Made by a program: the position numbers and the translations under genes
Assembly (NCBI RefSeq): GCF_000327485.1
Contig: NC_019943.1
Location: forward strand, 1,364,001-1,428,000
DNA: 64,000 nucleotides
Direction of reading: 5' to 3'
Source of the DNA: Methanoregula formicica SMSP
Lineage (GTDB): Archaea; Halobacteriota; Methanomicrobia; Methanomicrobiales; Methanospirillaceae
The notes under the pieces: generated by a model
Database searches by the model: none
What the model saw: only the letters and a program-made list of their open reading frames with translations
Told to the model about the DNA's origin: nothing
Shown: piece by piece, positions 38,684 through 46,754 of the stretch
Position numbering within the stretch: the stretch's first letter is position 1
How the letters are laid out: each line of letters opens with the position of its first letter

Positions 38684-40714
38684 ATGACCGACGTAGAATC
38701 AGCCAAAAAACATGGCGAAGAGGCATTGAAAACGAGGATCGCATCGATCCAGAAACCGTTCTCTTATGAGGAAACGGCCTACCACCTCCCGATATCGTAC
38801 GCGCTGACCGGTGTCGCAGTCCACGATCGTGCAGCAGCGGAAGACGTTCTCAAAAAGACCGCGAATAACCCCATCGTTGCATCTGAATGCCTGCTGGCTG
38901 AACAGACCGCAGTTCAGGGAAAGGAACCCGCTCCCTATACCGGTTTCATCAGCGACACGGTAATCCGGAAGCTCGGTTATTCGCTCGTGGACGGAAGCAT
39001 TCTTGGGCTTGCACTCATTGTCGGCACTCCTAAAGGAGAAGGAAGCGCCGCGGCCATCTGCCGCGAGCTGCAGGAAAAATACATGCTCACGTTCCTTGCC
39101 GGAAACGTTGTCCCGTCGCTGTCAGGAGCCGGCGTGAAGGTCGGTCTCGACTATCGCCTCATCCCCTTGGGCTCATCCCCGTTTTACGGCATTCACTTTG
39201 TGGACATCGTAGCCCGCGTTGCCATGATGTTTGGCGGGGTCACGCCCGGTGACATGCACCGCCTGCTGGCATACGCAGCCGAGCGTGCCAAGGCCATTGT
39301 CATTGTCTTCCCCGGCCTGACGGATGAAGAGATCGCCCTTGTCGACGGCATGCGGGTGCTGGGATTTCCCATCCTTTCCCTTGGCGGGTACGAGAATGCA
39401 ACCTGGGTTCCGGCAACCCCGGGGGATGTGGTGCGCCAGGGAATGGAACTCAAGGGTATCAAGGTCAATGTCACGGCAATTCCCATCCCCATGAGCTGTT
39501 CACCGGCATTTGAGGGAAAGAGCATACGGAAAGAAGAGATGTACGTGGAGTTTGGCGGTGGCCGGTCGACCGCGTTTGAGCTTCTCCGAATGCGCGAGCC
39601 TTCCGAGATCGAAGATGGCAAGGTCACAGTCATCGGTCCGGAGATCGATGCTATGAAGGAGGGCTCAGCGAACCCGCTGGGGATCATCATCGAAGTCGCC
39701 GGAAAGGCGATGAAGAAGGACTACGAGCCGGTCCTCGAACGCCGCATCCATAATTTTGTCAATTACGGCGAAGGCTCCTGGCACGTTGCCCAGCGTGACC
39801 TCATCTGGGTGAGGATCTCGAAAGAAGCCGTGGCAAAAGGGGTGAAGATCGAGCACATCGGCAAGCTGCTTGCAAGTAAGTTCCGGATGGACTTCCCCCA
39901 GCTGCTCGATGCGGTAGCCGTGACACTGATCACGGACCCGGCAAAGGTTGTTGAGGCAAAAAAAGAGGCGGAGCGGGTGTACGATGAGCGCGATGCCCGG
40001 ATCAAGGGCATGCGCGATTCAGATGTGAATACGTATTATTCCTGCACGCTCTGCCAGACGTTCGCCCCAAACCATGTCTGTGTCATCACTCCCGAACGGC
40101 TCGCCCTCTGCGGCGCCATCAGCTGGCTTGACGGAAAGATTGCGTACGAGATGTCTCCGTCGGGGGCCAACCAGCCCATCGAGAAAGGGGCCGTTATCAA
40201 CGAGCTGACCGGAGAATTCGAGGGCGTGAACCGGTTTGTCAAGAAGGCAAGCCATGGGGAGATCGAGCGGTGCTCGCTGTACAGCGTGATGGAATACCCG
40301 ATGACCTGCTGCGGCTGTTTCGAGGCAATTGCCCTGATGCTGCCGGAAGTGAACGGGATCATGGTTGTGAACCGGGAATACAAGGGCATGACTCCCTCTG
40401 GGATGACGTTCTCCACGCTTGCAGGCACTATCGGCGGGGGAGCACAGACACCGGGGTTTGCCGGCATCTCCAAGAACTATGTCCTCTCGGACCGTTTCCT
40501 CCAGGGCGAGGGAGGGATCGAGCGGCTTGTCTGGATGCCGGCAGCATTAAAGGAAGAACTCAAAGAGCGGCTGGAAAAGAAACTTGCAGAACGGGGCCTT
40601 ACCGGGTTCCTTGACAAGGTTGCGGATGAGACCACTGCTGAAACTATCGAAGCGCTCATGGAATTTTTAGAGCGTGTCGGGCATCCTGCACTGACCATGA
40701 AGCCCCTGGTGTGA
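38684..40714 (+). CDS. acsB: Acetyl-CoA synthase, long bacterial-type AcsB
   Basis: The 676-residue enzyme joins CO, a methyl group and CoA at the Ni-Fe-S A-cluster. All A-cluster ligands are present: C454, C457, C466 and C476 for the cubane, and C543-G544-C545 for the nickel pair. Their spacing equals that of Moorella ACS (506/509/518/528 and 595-597). Archaeal CdhC is about 470 residues and lacks the N-terminal domain. This protein keeps most of that domain, which docks CO dehydrogenase in bacteria, and is about 50 residues shorter at its N-terminus than Moorella ACS. The first gene of a tight operon, it overlaps acsD by four bases (GTGA). No CO dehydrogenase gene is adjacent. Confidence 0.92.
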   Translation: MTDVESAKKHGEEALKTRIASIQKPFSYEETAYHLPISYALTGVAVHDRAAAEDVLKKTANNPIVASECLLAEQTAVQGKEPAPYTGFISDTVIRKLGYSLVDGSILGLALIVGTPKGEGSAAAICRELQEKYMLTFLAGNVVPSLSGAGVKVGLDYRLIPLGSSPFYGIHFVDIVARVAMMFGGVTPGDMHRLLAYAAERAKAIVIVFPGLTDEEIALVDGMRVLGFPILSLGGYENATWVPATPGDVVRQGMELKGIKVNVTAIPIPMSCSPAFEGKSIRKEEMYVEFGGGRSTAFELLRMREPSEIEDGKVTVIGPEIDAMKEGSANPLGIIIEVAGKAMKKDYEPVLERRIHNFVNYGEGSWHVAQRDLIWVRISKEAVAKGVKIEHIGKLLASKFRMDFPQLLDAVAVTLITDPAKVVEAKKEAERVYDERDARIKGMRDSDVNTYYSCTLCQTFAPNHVCVITPERLALCGAISWLDGKIAYEMSPSGANQPIEKGAVINELTGEFEGVNRFVKKASHGEIERCSLYSVMEYPMTCCGCFEAIALMLPEVNGIMVVNREYKGMTPSGMTFSTLAGTIGGGAQTPGFAGISKNYVLSDRFLQGEGGIERLVWMPAALKEELKERLEKKLAERGLTGFLDKVADETTAETIEALMEFLERVGHPALTMKPLV

Positions 40715-41676
40715 GTGCCATGCCGCCCGAGCTGAATTTCGGCTGGACCACCCCCATTGGCGAAGTGGTCCTCGGTGCAACGAATGCTGATGGCGGGACG
40801 CGGAGGGTCTCGTACCGTATCGGCGGGGGAACAACCCTCCCGTTCCTTGAAGGCCAGCCCTCCACACCCGCCCCGCTCATTGCTTTTGAGATCTGCGACA
40901 ACCCCTCCTTCTGGTCGCCCATTGTGAAAGAGTATTGCGGTGACGTGACGAGCAACGTGAACGAATGGGCAAAGAAAGCGGATGCAGACTATGGCGCCGA
41001 CCTTGTCCGCCTCCACCTGACCAGCACGAAGCAGAGGAACTTCTCAGACGTTGCGTCTCTTGGCCCTGTTGTCGAAGGTGTCCTGTTGGCAACCAGTCTC
41101 CCGGTCATCATCGAGGGGAGCAACGAGCCGAAGATCGACAGCGAAGTGTACCAGAAATGCGGAGAGGCCGGGCAGGGGGAGCGTCTCCTCCTCGGGACCG
41201 CAGAAGCGGGGAAGTACCGCAGCATCGCAGCAGCTGCCCTTGCTTATAACCATTCCATCATCGCCCAGTCTCCCATCGATATCAACCTGGCAAAGCAGCT
41301 CAACATTCTCCTCAAGGAGATCGGGGTGCAGCGCGACCACATTGTCATTGATCCGTATACGGGAGCGCTCGGGTATGGCTTCGAGTACTCATACTCTGCC
41401 ATGGAACGGATACGCTTCTCTGCCCTCAAGGGAGACAGCGACCTTGCCATGCCAATGATCTGCTCCGCGGCCGATACCCTTACCATCAAGGAGGTGCGGG
41501 AGGCTGGCGCCGGATTGCAGGACGAGACCGCAATCCAGTGGGAGCTCTTCACCTGCCTTGCGGCCGCAACTGCCGGGGCAGAGATCCTCTGCGTCCGTCA
41601 CCCCGGAACCATCGCGCCCTTACGGAAGGCACTTGCCGGCATGAAACAACCGGCACACTCCGCGGGGGTGCCGTGA
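40711..41676 (+). CDS. acsD: Corrinoid iron-sulfur protein, small subunit (AcsD/CdhD-like)
   Basis: The TIM-barrel protein of about 321 residues has the CFeSP small-subunit motifs IAFEICD, LPVIIEGSNEPKID, LGTAEAGKYR and VIDPYTGALGYGFEYSYS. With AcsC it carries the corrinoid that accepts the methyl group and passes it to acetyl-CoA synthase. The GTG at 40711 overlaps the acsB stop, and an ATG at 40720 is an alternative. Only one base separates it from acsC. The length fits the bacterial AcsD; the archaeal CdhD is normally longer. Confidence 0.9.
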   Translation: MSAMPPELNFGWTTPIGEVVLGATNADGGTRRVSYRIGGGTTLPFLEGQPSTPAPLIAFEICDNPSFWSPIVKEYCGDVTSNVNEWAKKADADYGADLVRLHLTSTKQRNFSDVASLGPVVEGVLLATSLPVIIEGSNEPKIDSEVYQKCGEAGQGERLLLGTAEAGKYRSIAAAALAYNHSIIAQSPIDINLAKQLNILLKEIGVQRDHIVIDPYTGALGYGFEYSYSAMERIRFSALKGDSDLAMPMICSAADTLTIKEVREAGAGLQDETAIQWELFTCLAAATAGAEILCVRHPGTIAPLRKALAGMKQPAHSAGVP

Positions 41677-41677
41677 G

Positions 41678-43015
41678 ATGGCCCTCAAGGCACTCGATAT
41701 CTACAAGCTCCTTCCCAAGAAGAACTGCAAGGAGTGTGGGGATCCGACCTGTCTCACGTTCGCCATGAAACTTGCCGGCGGGAAAGCAGACCTCGACCTC
41801 TGCCCGTACCTGAGTGACGAGGCAAAGTCCGTGCTTGGCGCAACAACCCGCCCGCCGATCCGTCTCGTCAAGATCGGTGTCGGTACAAGGAACTTCAAGG
41901 TCGGGGAAGAGACCGTCCTGTACCGCCACGAGAAGACCTTCTACCACCCCCCGGGCATTGTCTTCCGTGTCACCGATACGATGCAGGCTGACGAGATCGT
42001 TGCCGTTACGCGGAGGGTGCGGGACGAGACGCTCACCCGCGTGGGTGCTGACCTCCGGTTCAATGGTATCGCTATTGAGAATGTGAGTGGTTCGGCAGAG
42101 ACATTTGCCCGGGCCGTGGAAACGGTGGAAAAGGTCGAAGCCCACCTGCCGCCCGTCCTCATCTCGAAAGACACAGCAGCCCTGAAAGCAGCGCTGGTCT
42201 ATTGTGGCACCTACCGCCCCCTCCTCCATGCAGCAACGCAGGAAAATGTAAAGGAGATGTGCGCCCTTGCTAAACAGCACGGCTGCCCGCTTGTCGTGAG
42301 ATCCGGCAGCCTCGATGGCCTTGTAAACCTGGTGAAGACCTGCACAGCCGATGGCGTGCCTGACCTTGTCCTTGACCTTGCGCCCGGAACTTTCGGTGAC
42401 TTTATCCGGCGTTCCACGGCTGTCCGCCAGCTCGCCATCACCCGTGCAGTCCCGGATCTCGGGTATCCGGTGTACCTCAATGCAGCAGAGACCGGCCAGC
42501 AGGATGCAGCCGTTGCATTAGGAATTGTCAAATACGGGTCCGTCATCGTTACCGATCCCCTCCCGGTCGGGTCCGCAAAAGCTGCCCTTACCCTCCGGCA
42601 GAACATCTATACCGATCCCCAGAAACCCATCCAGATGAACCCGGGAATCTACCGCGTAGGCTCGCCGGATAAGGACTCACCCGTCCTGATGACCGTGAAC
42701 TTCTCACTCACGTTCTTCACGCTCCAGGGATACCTCGAATCTGCCCGCGTCCCCTGCTTCATGCTGATCGTGGATACGGAGGGGCTCTCGGTCCTGACTG
42801 CCGTAGCAGCAGGAAAACTCTCGGAGATGCTTGTCCGCGACTCAATCAAAAAGTTCGGGCTTGAGAACGAGGTCTCCCACCGGAAGCTGATCATCCCCGG
42901 GTATGCATCGCCTCTTTCCGGAAGAATAGAAGATGCAACCGGCTGGAAGGTCCTTGTCGGTCCCCGTGATGCAGCGGAGATCGGGGAGTACCTGCACGAG
43001 GAGTGGAAAAAATAG
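41678..43015 (+). CDS. acsC: Corrinoid iron-sulfur protein, large subunit (AcsC/CdhE-like)
   Basis: The 445-residue protein begins with the [4Fe-4S] domain of the family: Cys17, Cys20, Cys25 and Cys42, with the exact spacing known for CFeSP. A TIM-barrel domain and a C-terminal corrinoid-binding domain follow. The iron-sulfur cluster feeds electrons to reactivate the cobalt. It lies between acsD (one base gap) and acsV (no gap), so all three are made together. Confidence 0.92.
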   Translation: MALKALDIYKLLPKKNCKECGDPTCLTFAMKLAGGKADLDLCPYLSDEAKSVLGATTRPPIRLVKIGVGTRNFKVGEETVLYRHEKTFYHPPGIVFRVTDTMQADEIVAVTRRVRDETLTRVGADLRFNGIAIENVSGSAETFARAVETVEKVEAHLPPVLISKDTAALKAALVYCGTYRPLLHAATQENVKEMCALAKQHGCPLVVRSGSLDGLVNLVKTCTADGVPDLVLDLAPGTFGDFIRRSTAVRQLAITRAVPDLGYPVYLNAAETGQQDAAVALGIVKYGSVIVTDPLPVGSAKAALTLRQNIYTDPQKPIQMNPGIYRVGSPDKDSPVLMTVNFSLTFFTLQGYLESARVPCFMLIVDTEGLSVLTAVAAGKLSEMLVRDSIKKFGLENEVSHRKLIIPGYASPLSGRIEDATGWKVLVGPRDAAEIGEYLHEEWKK

Positions 43016-44917
43016 ATGCGGACCGTTACCTTCCTCCCCAGTTACCGCAAGATCGATGTCCCCCGGGGGACGACCGTACTGGATGCCGCGCAGCGGGCCG
43101 GCCTCTCCATGAACGTTGTCTGCGGCGGCCAGGGCAAGTGCGGCAAATGCATCGTATACATTCAGTCGGGACGCGCAGAGTTCGACCGGCAGAAATTCGG
43201 CAGGTTCTTTTCTGACGCCGAGCTGCAGAAAGGCGCCTGCCTTGCCTGCGAGACGATTGTCCAGGGTGACCTCCATGTCCTCGTTCCCGAGAGCACCCTC
43301 ATCCAGGAGCAGAAGATCCTTGTCGAGGGGCTTGACCACGAGATCGAGTTCCGCCCGTCGGTCAGGAAATATTATGTCGAGCTCCAGCCGCCGAGTCTTG
43401 CCGACCCGTCGCCTGACCTATCCCGCCTTCTCTGGGGCATCCAGAAGAGCGGCGGGCCGGTGGCGGAGAAGATGTACGCTCCGCTTGAGGTGCTCCGCGA
43501 GATCCCCTCCATCCTGCGTCACAGTGACTGGAAGGTGACGGCAACCATCGGCCTCGTTCCCGGGGGGTACCGGGTCATTGATCTCCAGGAGAACGATACC
43601 TCGAAGAGGGCCTATGGCGCTGCCGTGGACCTGGGCTCGACAACCGTTGTCGTTTATCTCTGGGACCTGGTAACCGGGAAAGTCGTCGGGGTGGCCTCGA
43701 ATTACAACAAGCAGATCAGCTGTGGTGAGGACATTCTGGCCCGGGTCAACTTTGCCCGGAAGAACGGCCTTACCAAGCTCCAGGCACTTGCAGCCGAGAG
43801 TATCAACCAGGCCCTCACCACCGCATCGAACTCTGCCGGGATCGACCGCGAGGACATCTATGATGTAGTTGTTGCCGGAAACACCGTCATGACTCACATG
43901 CTCCTCGAGATCGACCCGGCCTACATGATCGCCGAGCCGTATGTCCCGGTTGTCCGGAGGGCGCTCTCGATCGCTGCCCACCGTCTCGGCATCAACTGCA
44001 ACCCGAACGGCGGCGTCTTTGCATTTCCGGCGGTCAGCGATTTCATCGGGGGCGACATCATTGCCGACATCCTTGCCTGCGGCATGGGAGAGCGCGATGA
44101 GATCTCGCTCCTCGTGGACATTGGCACGAATTTCGAAGTTGTGCTCGGGAACAGGGAGTGGATGTTCTCCTGTGCCGGCGCGGCCGGCCCGGCCCTGGAA
44201 GGGGGCGAGGTGCTCTTTGGCATGCGGGCCAACCCCGGGGCAATTGAGAAGATCACCATTGACCCGGTCACGCTCGACCCGGAGTACTCGACCATCAACG
44301 GGATCAAACCCCGGGGGGTCTGCGGCTCGGGGCTCATTGACCTGCTTGCCGAGCTGCTGGTTGTCTGTGTCATCGACCGGACCGGACGGATTAACACCGA
44401 GATCGAACATCCCCGCATCCGGAAAGGAACGCACTTCCCCGAATTTGTCATTGCCTGGGCAAAGGAGACGGATATCGGAAAGGACATCGTGATCACCGAG
44501 AACGATATCAAGAACCTGATCATGAGCAAGGCATCAGTCCACGCTGCCTGCGTTACCCTGATGAAGGAAGCGGGGGTGACCCACAAGGACATTTCGACCA
44601 TCTACTTTGCCGGTGCATTCGGCAACTACCTGGACAAGAAGAACGCTACGATCATCGGCCTGATCCCGGAGATTGACTTAAACGACATCAAAAATATCGG
44701 CAACGGGGCGGTCACCGGTGCAAACATTGCACTCATCAACCGCCGGGCCCGAAAGACCCTTGATGATATCGCATACAGGATTGCCTACATCGAGCTGAAT
44801 GCCGAGAGCTCCTTTATGGACGAGTACACCGGCAGCACCTTCCTCCCGCACACGGACTTCTCGCTCTTCCCGGGAGTCCAGAAACTCCTCGATTCCTGCC
44901 GGATCAGGAAGGAGTGA
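43016..44917 (+). CDS. acsV: Reductive activator of the corrinoid protein (AcsV/RACo-like, DUF4445)
   Basis: The 633-residue protein has an N-terminal [2Fe-2S] ferredoxin domain (CGGQGKCGKC, then CLACE). A linker follows, and a large ASKHA-type ATPase domain (from AVDLGSTTVVVYLWDL) with the DUF4445 landmarks DIGTNFEVVLG and GVCGSGLIDLLAELL. RACo uses ATP to lift electrons to the inactive Co(II) corrinoid protein. Its place after acsC matches acetogen gene clusters. The methanogen RamA activator differs by having C-terminal 4Fe-4S clusters, which are absent here. Confidence 0.88.
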   Translation: MRTVTFLPSYRKIDVPRGTTVLDAAQRAGLSMNVVCGGQGKCGKCIVYIQSGRAEFDRQKFGRFFSDAELQKGACLACETIVQGDLHVLVPESTLIQEQKILVEGLDHEIEFRPSVRKYYVELQPPSLADPSPDLSRLLWGIQKSGGPVAEKMYAPLEVLREIPSILRHSDWKVTATIGLVPGGYRVIDLQENDTSKRAYGAAVDLGSTTVVVYLWDLVTGKVVGVASNYNKQISCGEDILARVNFARKNGLTKLQALAAESINQALTTASNSAGIDREDIYDVVVAGNTVMTHMLLEIDPAYMIAEPYVPVVRRALSIAAHRLGINCNPNGGVFAFPAVSDFIGGDIIADILACGMGERDEISLLVDIGTNFEVVLGNREWMFSCAGAAGPALEGGEVLFGMRANPGAIEKITIDPVTLDPEYSTINGIKPRGVCGSGLIDLLAELLVVCVIDRTGRINTEIEHPRIRKGTHFPEFVIAWAKETDIGKDIVITENDIKNLIMSKASVHAACVTLMKEAGVTHKDISTIYFAGAFGNYLDKKNATIIGLIPEIDLNDIKNIGNGAVTGANIALINRRARKTLDDIAYRIAYIELNAESSFMDEYTGSTFLPHTDFSLFPGVQKLLDSCRIRKE

Positions 44918-44922
44918 TCAGC

Positions 44923-45969
44923 ATGGCAATAATGATACCACCACCCTACTCTCTCGCAACCGGCGTCGGGGGGCTCCCCCACACCGACCCGAAACAGGCC
45001 TGCGACGACGTGCTCTCCATCTTTCCGGGTTTCCCCTATATCCCGACGCTGCCAAACCGCGCCCTGCTGGAGGGCATTGTCTTCAATGACTCAGAACAGC
45101 TCCCGGGCCGCATCATCCGCGAGGACCGGCTCCTGTTTGACAGCACAAAAGACCAGACCGCGGCAATGGAGAAGGTGTACATGGACTTTGTCGAAGGGAA
45201 CTTCTCCGGCTACGGGCTCAACAGGGAGTATGCTTCGGCATTCATGGAGATGCTGTCACGGACAGTCCCCTCTGCCTGCGTGCTCAAGTGCCAGGTGACC
45301 GGTCCGGTCACGTTCGGCATGCAGGTCGTGGATGCAGACAAACGTCCGATCTATTACGACACCCAGCTTGCCGATGTCCTCTCCAAGATGATCGCGCTCA
45401 AGGCCCGCTGGTGCGAGAATGCTATGAGGGAGCAGTGCGGTGCAAAGGAGACGCTCGTTGTTTTGAACGAGCCCTACCTTGCATCGCTCGGCTCTTCGGT
45501 TGTCCCGGTTGACAAGGATACCGTGAAAGCAGGATGGGAGGATATCGCCTCGCTCGTCCAGGGCGGGCTCGGTGTCCACTGCTGCTCCAATACGGACTGG
45601 GAGTTTGTCATGGAACTCAGCCCCGCAGTCATCTCCCTCGATGCCTATGCAACGGCAAAAGAGTTCCTCCTGTATGCCGACTCGGTTATCACCTTTATGG
45701 AGCGGGGCGGAGTCGTAGCATGGGGGATTGTTCCGGCCGAATACAAGATCTTCACTACGGAAACGGTTGACACACTGTATGAGAAGTATCTCGCGATACG
45801 TACCCATCTCTGCCAGAGAATGCCGGAAAAGCTCTTTGATGCACAGTCGCTCGTCACCCCCAGCTGCGGGATCCGTTTTGCCGACAGGGACGGTTCGCTT
45901 GGCATCATGGGGGCAGCAGCAGAGATCTCCCTCCGGATCCGTGCCGACAAAAACTACCCGCCCTGCTGA
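44923..45969 (+). CDS. MetE/UroD-superfamily zinc methyltransferase-like protein
   Basis: The protein of about 348 residues resembles the C-terminal half of cobalamin-independent methionine synthase. It has a probable zinc site HCC (in GVHCCSNTDWEF) and a late cysteine in VTPSCGIRF, plus LNEPYLASLG. It probably moves a methyl group to or from a thiol or corrinoid, but the substrate is unknown. The ATG at 44923 has a strong AGGAGTGAT site before it and is preferred over the GTG at 44914. It is coupled to acsV and the CooC-like gene. Confidence 0.72.
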   Translation: MAIMIPPPYSLATGVGGLPHTDPKQACDDVLSIFPGFPYIPTLPNRALLEGIVFNDSEQLPGRIIREDRLLFDSTKDQTAAMEKVYMDFVEGNFSGYGLNREYASAFMEMLSRTVPSACVLKCQVTGPVTFGMQVVDADKRPIYYDTQLADVLSKMIALKARWCENAMREQCGAKETLVVLNEPYLASLGSSVVPVDKDTVKAGWEDIASLVQGGLGVHCCSNTDWEFVMELSPAVISLDAYATAKEFLLYADSVITFMERGGVVAWGIVPAEYKIFTTETVDTLYEKYLAIRTHLCQRMPEKLFDAQSLVTPSCGIRFADRDGSLGIMGAAAEISLRIRADKNYPPC

Positions 45970-45986
45970 CATACGGAGAAAGCAGA

Positions 45987-46754
45987 ATGTCGCCACACCC
46001 TTTTACGATTGCACTCTCCGGCAAGGGAGGGACCGGCAAGACAACGGTCAGTTCTCTCCTTGTCCGGTTGTTCATCGCCCTGGGCGAGACGCCGGTCCTT
46101 GCCGTTGACGCAGACCCGAATGCCAACCTGCATGAAGCACTGGGCGTCTCCGTGAAAGAGACGCTCGGGAGCATGCGGGAGGAGGCGTTCTCACGGAATA
46201 TCCCGCCCGGCATGAACAGGCACGACTATGTCCGGCTCCGCTTCCGGCAGGCTCTTGTCGAGAGCGAGGGATTCGACCTTGTCGCCATGGGCCGGCCCGA
46301 AGGAACCGGCTGCTACTGTTTTGCCAACGACCTCCTGTCGGAATGCATGCAGTCACTTGAACGCGATTACCCGTTCATTGTCATCGACTCTGAGGCAGGC
46401 ATGGAACACATCAGCCGGGGCACTATCGGAAAACCGGACCTCCTCCTCATTGTCAGCGATCCCGGCGCCCGGGGCCTCCGGACTATCGCCCGCATAAGGG
46501 AGATTGCCACCCAGCTCGGCCTTGAGCAGGAGAAGATCCGCGTTGTGTTCAACCAGTACAAAACCGGGGCGGCTTCAATCGATATTGGATCTGAATCGCC
46601 CATTGCTATTATTCCGGAAGATCCTGCTGTGGAGAAAGCGGACCTGGCAGCGGAGCCGGTTTCGCTTATTCCGAACAATTCACCGGCGCGGGTTGCTGTG
46701 CGGGAACTGGCGGAGAGGATCCGGGAGATGAAGAGGGCGCGGGGTGAGAAATAG
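45987..46754 (+). CDS. CooC/AcsF-type nickel-insertion ATPase
   Basis: The 255-residue MinD-like ATPase has the deviant P-loop GKGGTGKTT (residues 12-20). It also carries the CooC hallmark C-x-C at Cys109 and Cys111 (GTGCYCFAND), which binds metal between two subunits. These proteins load nickel into CO dehydrogenase (CooC) or acetyl-CoA synthase (AcsF). As the operon has ACS but no CO dehydrogenase, an AcsF role is the better reading. It closes the operon, 17 bases after the MetE-like gene. Confidence 0.85.
   Translation: MSPHPFTIALSGKGGTGKTTVSSLLVRLFIALGETPVLAVDADPNANLHEALGVSVKETLGSMREEAFSRNIPPGMNRHDYVRLRFRQALVESEGFDLVAMGRPEGTGCYCFANDLLSECMQSLERDYPFIVIDSEAGMEHISRGTIGKPDLLLIVSDPGARGLRTIARIREIATQLGLEQEKIRVVFNQYKTGAASIDIGSESPIAIIPEDPAVEKADLAAEPVSLIPNNSPARVAVRELAERIREMKRARGEK

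Follow-up and report, generated by a model that had tools for sequence, protein, structure and literature searches.

The stretch analysed here, hereafter called the window, comprises 64,000 nucleotides of the Methanoregula formicica SMSP genome (NC_019943.1, positions 1,364,001 to 1,428,000), and its positions 38684-46754, on the + strand, harbor an operon of six genes encoding a long AcsB, the acetyl-CoA synthase (ACS), followed by AcsD, AcsC, AcsV, a MetE-like protein designated orf5, and a CooC/AcsF ATPase. Neither a carbon monoxide dehydrogenase (CODH) nor AcsE is encoded within it. This arrangement is real, conserved and largely undescribed, and its individual parts were already known. 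Judging from its gene content, the operon appears to hold the parts to exchange a methyl group between acetyl-CoA and a thiol, and none for making CO or for the uptake of a pterin-bound methyl group by an AcsE-type enzyme. It is tentatively proposed, at slightly less than an even chance, that it constitutes a CODH-independent ACS module similar to that of Dehalococcoides, which would move the methyl group of acetyl-CoA via a corrinoid protein to a thiol. This reading is supported by the identical gene order among relatives, the retention of the operon in genomes without CODH, the trimmed AcsB, the lack of AcsE, and the fold of orf5 together with its zinc site.

The six genes overlap by 4 bases or are spaced no more than ~20 nt apart. 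The acsB gene (38684..40714) encodes a long bacterial-type acetyl-CoA synthase of 676 aa (NCBIfam NF040764), and overlaps by 4 bases with acsD (40711..41676), which starts with GTG and encodes the small subunit of the corrinoid iron-sulfur protein (NF003376, 356 bits against a cut-off of 280). The large subunit is encoded by acsC (41678..43015; NF003195, 556 against a cut-off of 306), in which the cysteines of the Fe-S motif, C17-C20-C25-C42, were present. It is followed by acsV (43016..44917), coding for a RACo-type ATP-dependent reductive activator of the corrinoid protein, for which the four RACo Pfam domains (2Fe-2S, linker, middle and ASKHA) were all matched, with a score of 563 that stays below the NF040756 cut-off of 800. 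The orf5 gene (44923..45969) encodes 348 aa, with a possible alternative GTG start at 44914, and its product is predicted from its fold and zinc site to be a MesB-type, core-MetE-like zinc thiol methyltransferase. The last gene (45987..46754) encodes a cooC/acsF-like ATPase with a CbiA domain, a probable nickel insertion factor for AcsB. The first-pass annotation of this DNA, made from the sequence alone, had described six coupled genes with no CODH and no AcsE among them, and both statements were confirmed.

A scan of genome contigs retrieved at least 80 loci related to the operon, nearly all of them titled Methanoregula, Methanolinea, Methanospirillum, Methanoculleus or other Methanomicrobiales; among the loci listed, two were titled merely Euryarchaeota, and the closest belonged to Methanoregula. 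The order AcsB-AcsD-AcsC-AcsV-orf5-CooC was identical in every complete copy inspected, from several families of Methanomicrobiales, and its maintenance in all these relatives excludes chance. In 135 Methanomicrobiales genomes, each at least 90% complete, the long AcsB was found in 63 and the short archaeal CdhC in 41, with 31 genomes carrying both, 32 carrying only AcsB and 10 only CdhC; closed genomes were included among the AcsB-bearing ones without CdhC. When 393 genomes of the phylum were compared, an AcsB that includes the N-terminal domain was restricted to Methanomicrobiales and one further family (f7), the rest of the phylum having short CdhC only. In f7, one open reading frame of ~1,380 aa fuses a complete CooS-type CODH (TIGR01702, 719 bits) to a complete AcsB (NF040764, 939 bits). 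This fusion, found at L163:5167-9297 on the - strand, adjoins AcsD, AcsC, AcsV and CooC genes, and reading frames of similar length occurred in three genomes of the family (L163, L178, L179). No relatives of the operon were detected in a viral contig collection, and the matches in a plasmid collection were a single AcsB record and a single distant protein resembling MesB. The Acetoanaerobium record NZ_CP154629.1 (L153), 2.6 Mb in size and listed as a plasmid, contains a full Wood-Ljungdahl gene cluster and is chromosome-like. In three genomes, two small genes were observed on the opposite strand beside the acsB end of the operon (L157:5619-6537, L158:14371-15316, L169:10067-10997), the first encoding a weakly FtrB-like protein (ferredoxin-thioredoxin reductase) with a rubrerythrin-like tail, and the second an unassigned protein with a CSPFPC motif; L158 also holds a further CooC-like gene after a CooS gene located downstream of the operon.

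The operon was retained in at least 10 genomes in which no CODH was found, including one closed genome and several drafts. No prismane-family protein was detected in seven of them (G015, G154, G399, G428, G429, G440 and G441), the closed one (G039, 99% complete) encodes a hydroxylamine reductase only, and the prismane proteins of G368 and G393 were only of hydroxylamine-reductase size, as judged by length. G044, in which one contig end carries an additional fragment, is probably an eleventh case, and four genomes of the genus of G039 (G423, G425, G426 and G430) each presented a second prismane match that could be CooS. Any one absence is weak, since drafts are involved, but the closed genome combined with the number of cases is not. 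As the operon is kept where no CODH was found, it cannot generally serve to reduce CO2 via a partner CODH.

The AcsB protein matched NF040764 with 946 bits against a cut-off of 800, over model positions 4-705 of 705, and aligned with solved bacterial acetyl-CoA synthases. Its A-cluster ligands (C454, C457, C466, C476 and C543-G544-C545) were invariant across ten sequences. Its description as a long AcsB was upheld in that the N-terminal domain is included end to end, although the protein is somewhat shorter than the bacterial AcsB, which range from 708 to 730 aa. In the alignment, the AcsB of the order lacked the very start of the protein and ~16 residues within a helical stretch of the N-terminal domain, and both parts were kept in all the CODH-partnered or CODH-fused proteins of the comparison set (Clostridium autoethanogenum, Carboxydothermus hydrogenoformans, Acetoanaerobium and the f7 fusions). 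This trimming may have removed contacts with CODH.

In a maximum-likelihood tree, which included only three bacterial AcsB and carries a long-branch warning, the AcsB of the order grouped in a single clade (100/99) that shared its side of the tree with the bacterial proteins and the f7 fusions and was split from archaeal CdhC with 100/100 support. AcsC and AcsD also formed clades apart from archaeal CdhE and CdhD, respectively, in trees whose single bacterial sequence sits at the tip of a very long branch. These separate clades indicated that the three genes are not products of a recent duplication of resident cdh genes. A bacterial source for AcsB appears likely from the sequences, and the confinement of long AcsB to Methanomicrobiales and f7 suggests lateral entry. 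The first-pass proposal of an acquisition from bacteria thus agrees with the bacterial-side position of AcsB, but a recent acquisition by a single species was rejected, as the operon is spread across the order. Two findings had been named as speaking against this origin: a complete archaeal Cdh operon elsewhere in the genome, which was found, and the placement of these genes inside an old archaeal clade; in the trees, they fell outside the archaeal CdhC, CdhD and CdhE clades.

No Pfam or NCBIfam match was obtained for orf5, and its sequence gave no usable match to solved structures. The best structural matches of its AlphaFold2 model (predicted local distance difference test score, pLDDT, of 92) were MesD (3rpd, Z 26.2) and the C-terminal catalytic half of MetE (Z ~25), so that a coenzyme M methyltransferase of the MtaA/UroD type, with Z of at most 20, was rejected as its nearest fold. 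According to the model, orf5 would adopt the fold of the MetE catalytic domain without the folate-binding half. The zinc ligands H-C-D-C were present in 71 of 71 members from the order, and the spacing of the zinc and homocysteine-site positions matched the residues published for Dehalococcoides mccartyi MesB (15, 177, 214, 216, 235 and 311; PMC7857596). In that paper, Price et al. (2021) reported that members of the MesB family mostly conserve the Ser and Asp that bind homocysteine, predicted that MesB receives methyl groups from AcsCD, and noted that certain methanogens seem to carry mesB and acsCD as one operon and that some Methanomicrobiales have both MesA and MesB. The window operon is very probably what these authors saw as mesB-acsCD. 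The MetE-like identity first given to the fifth gene was therefore sustained by its catalytic fold and zinc site; however, the protein had been suggested as a methyl donor, and a methyl-accepting partner of the MesB type is more likely. It is MesB-like, as far as sequence and model indicate, and a role as methionine synthase is putative. A distant MesB-like protein with zinc ligands is encoded on the Desulfosarcina ovata plasmid NZ_AP021877.1 (L171:7992-9020), beside hcp and FprA genes, and the stretch shown around it contained no acs genes.

The M. formicica genome is closed (2.82 Mb), and a genome-wide search for cdhA/cooS and cdhB/C, which had been recommended, a distant CODH having been raised as a possible source of CO, revealed a complete archaeal Cdh operon ~0.28 Mb from the window. 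It contains two cooC genes, cdhA (791 aa), cdhB, cdhC (467 aa), cdhD, cdhE and, directly downstream of cdhE, a RACo/AcsV-like reductive activator gene (L004:4104-5945, - strand). Since the resident archaeal operon carries such a gene, AcsV is not by itself the bacterial marker it had been taken for. The genome-wide matches to PF03063 (prismane family) were CdhA and one hydroxylamine-reductase-sized protein only, which indicates that CdhA is the sole CODH and that CooS is lacking. The absence of any CODH from the genome was thus rejected, and the phrase "without CO dehydrogenase" holds for the operon but not for the cell. Likewise, the idea that the operon replaces Cdh as the acetyl-CoA system of the cell is wrong for M. 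formicica, in which it represents a second system, even if CdhC is missing from about half of the relatives that carry the operon. AcsE is absent from the genome, as the single PF00809 (Pterin_bind) protein is a dihydropteroate synthase. The gene for the latter is flanked by a FolD-like gene and a CofE-resembling gene, both recognized by eye (region L189:668-3200, near C1:521,500), which suggests some folate metabolism in M. formicica.

In the proposed module, CooC would insert nickel into AcsB, and AcsB together with AcsCD would catalyze the exchange between acetyl-CoA and methyl-corrinoid, CO and CoA. AcsV would re-reduce AcsCD once its cobalt had been oxidised, and orf5, as a MesB-type zinc enzyme, would carry methyl groups from AcsCD to a thiol or back. 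The cleaving direction would be the most likely one, as proposed for D. mccartyi (PMC7005905; PMC7857596): acetyl-CoA made from imported acetate would be split, its methyl group passing to AcsCD and then to the thiol, by default homocysteine to give methionine, and the CO would either be released or, in hosts with CdhA or CooS, undergo oxidation by these enzymes. We infer this direction of flux, the thiol acceptor and the physical contact between the parts of the operon. Labelling of D. mccartyi, as cited in PMC7857596, traced the methionine methyl group to acetate, and within the Methanomicrobiales, Methanospirillum hungatei requires acetate despite having Cdh, the role of which was termed undefined (PMC4704411).

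However, several observations weigh against this reading. A MesA-type core methionine synthase (PF01717) was found in 56 of 60 relatives, including a candidate in M. formicica, so methionine need not depend on orf5. Moreover, the Ser and Asp that bind the amino and carboxyl groups of homocysteine are replaced by Gly and Asn in M. formicica orf5; the Ser was found in 10 of the 71 proteins, the Asp in five and both in four, Ala or Gly together with Asn being the usual state, and the acceptor may therefore not be homocysteine. The proteins with Ser/Asp belong to several scattered lineages. Many relatives possess a CODH, either CdhA or CooS, and many of the AcsB-only genomes (n=32) carry CooS. TIGR01702 confirmed the latter in nine of the genomes with the operon (eight AcsB-only ones plus G030, which also has CdhA), and in two Methanoregulaceae genomes (G322 and G202; L157:16859-18970 and L158:1803-3755) it follows the operon on the same strand at a distance of ~2 kb. 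In addition, methyl-tetrahydromethanopterin (methyl-H4MPT) is abundant in methanogens, so the need for a methyl group derived from acetate is not obvious.

Such CODH genes lend weight to the main rival, in which the operon would make acetyl-CoA from a methyl group taken up by AcsCD directly from methyl-H4MPT, as archaeal CdhDE does, and from CO supplied by CdhA, CooS or the surroundings. The metal-binding cysteines are preserved in AcsB and AcsC, some CODH occurs in most genomes with AcsB, and 31 of the 63 also have CdhC. Synthesis is possible but doubtful, as the operon persists in genomes where no CODH was found, AcsE is missing and the AcsB N-terminal domain is trimmed; M. formicica, moreover, already has a complete Cdh, and orf5 would be left unexplained. 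The same coexistence with CdhC, together with the absence of the operon from over half of the order genomes sampled, would also suit a mostly redundant backup of the archaeal Cdh with no distinct role, which is improbable given that 32 of the 63 genomes, closed ones included, lack CdhC, and that conservation of the catalytic cysteines and the gene order is strict throughout Methanomicrobiales.

The altered substrate site of orf5 raises instead the question of another thiol. If orf5 exchanged methyl groups between methyl-S-coenzyme M and AcsCD, the ACS module would be joined to methanogenesis; an invariant zinc site next to Ala/Gly and Asn might suit a thiol without amino or carboxyl groups, MesA already covers methionine, and coenzyme M is plentiful in methanogens. 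This exchange is nevertheless unlikely, as the orf5 fold is nearer to MetE/MesD than to the coenzyme M methyltransferase/UroD family, and the scattered occurrence of Ser/Asp may mean that the site is merely permissive. The transfer of a methyl group from coenzyme M to cobalt is also energetically uphill. A further reading, rather unlikely, is a CODH-independent ACS module that runs backwards in acetate-dependent methanogens, alongside a separate complete Cdh: it would cut acetyl-CoA and release CO, and its own corrinoid protein and a repurposed MesB would hand the methyl group on to a thiol other than homocysteine, such as coenzyme M.

Methanomicrobiales are prominent hydrogenotrophic methanogens of peat, lakes and digesters, and the acetate requirement of M. 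hungatei despite its acetyl-CoA synthase is a paradox stated in the literature (PMC4704411). The persistence of this order-wide ACS module in genomes without a detected CODH suggests that ACS in Methanomicrobiales can serve methyl transfer instead of carbon fixation, and acsBCD-like genes in a methanogen genome are no evidence for autotrophic acetyl-CoA synthesis. In the open-access literature, no description of the whole operon was found beyond that of Price et al. (2021; PMC7857596).

Compared with the archaeal acetyl-CoA decarbonylase/synthase (Cdh, cdhA-E), the window operon would perform the same overall chemistry with a homologous AcsB/CdhC core and the homologous pairs AcsC/CdhE and AcsD/CdhD. 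In contrast to Cdh, its AcsB bears the bacterial N-terminal domain, which the short CdhC lacks, CdhA and CdhB have no counterparts in it, and all three proteins fall in separate clades. It shares with the CODH/ACS of acetogens such as C. autoethanogenum and Carboxydothermus the long AcsB (42-46% identity), AcsV and CooC/AcsF, but differs in the absence of a CODH partner and of AcsE, the shortened AcsB N-terminal domain and the addition of orf5; a complete carbonyl branch of the Wood-Ljungdahl pathway comprises a CODH encoded with ACS as well as AcsE, and the operon contains neither. The closest parallel is the incomplete Wood-Ljungdahl pathway of D. mccartyi (AcsB, AcsCD and core-MetE/MesB, without MetF or AcsE), in which ACS and the corrinoid protein also occur without AcsE and a MesB-type enzyme is the proposed methyl acceptor (PMC7005905; PMC7857596). 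Unlike that system, the Methanomicrobiales unit is archaeal and forms a single operon with AcsV and CooC, its hosts also have MesA and methyl-H4MPT, with a full archaeal Cdh in M. formicica, and the homocysteine residues of orf5 are mostly changed relative to D. mccartyi MesB. The mesB-acsC-acsD operons of methanogens mentioned by Price et al. (2021) are probably of the same type as the window operon, and to what the consulted portions of that paper (PMC7857596) contain, the present analysis adds the membership of long AcsB, AcsV and CooC, the coexistence with Cdh, the persistence without CODH and the altered homocysteine site.

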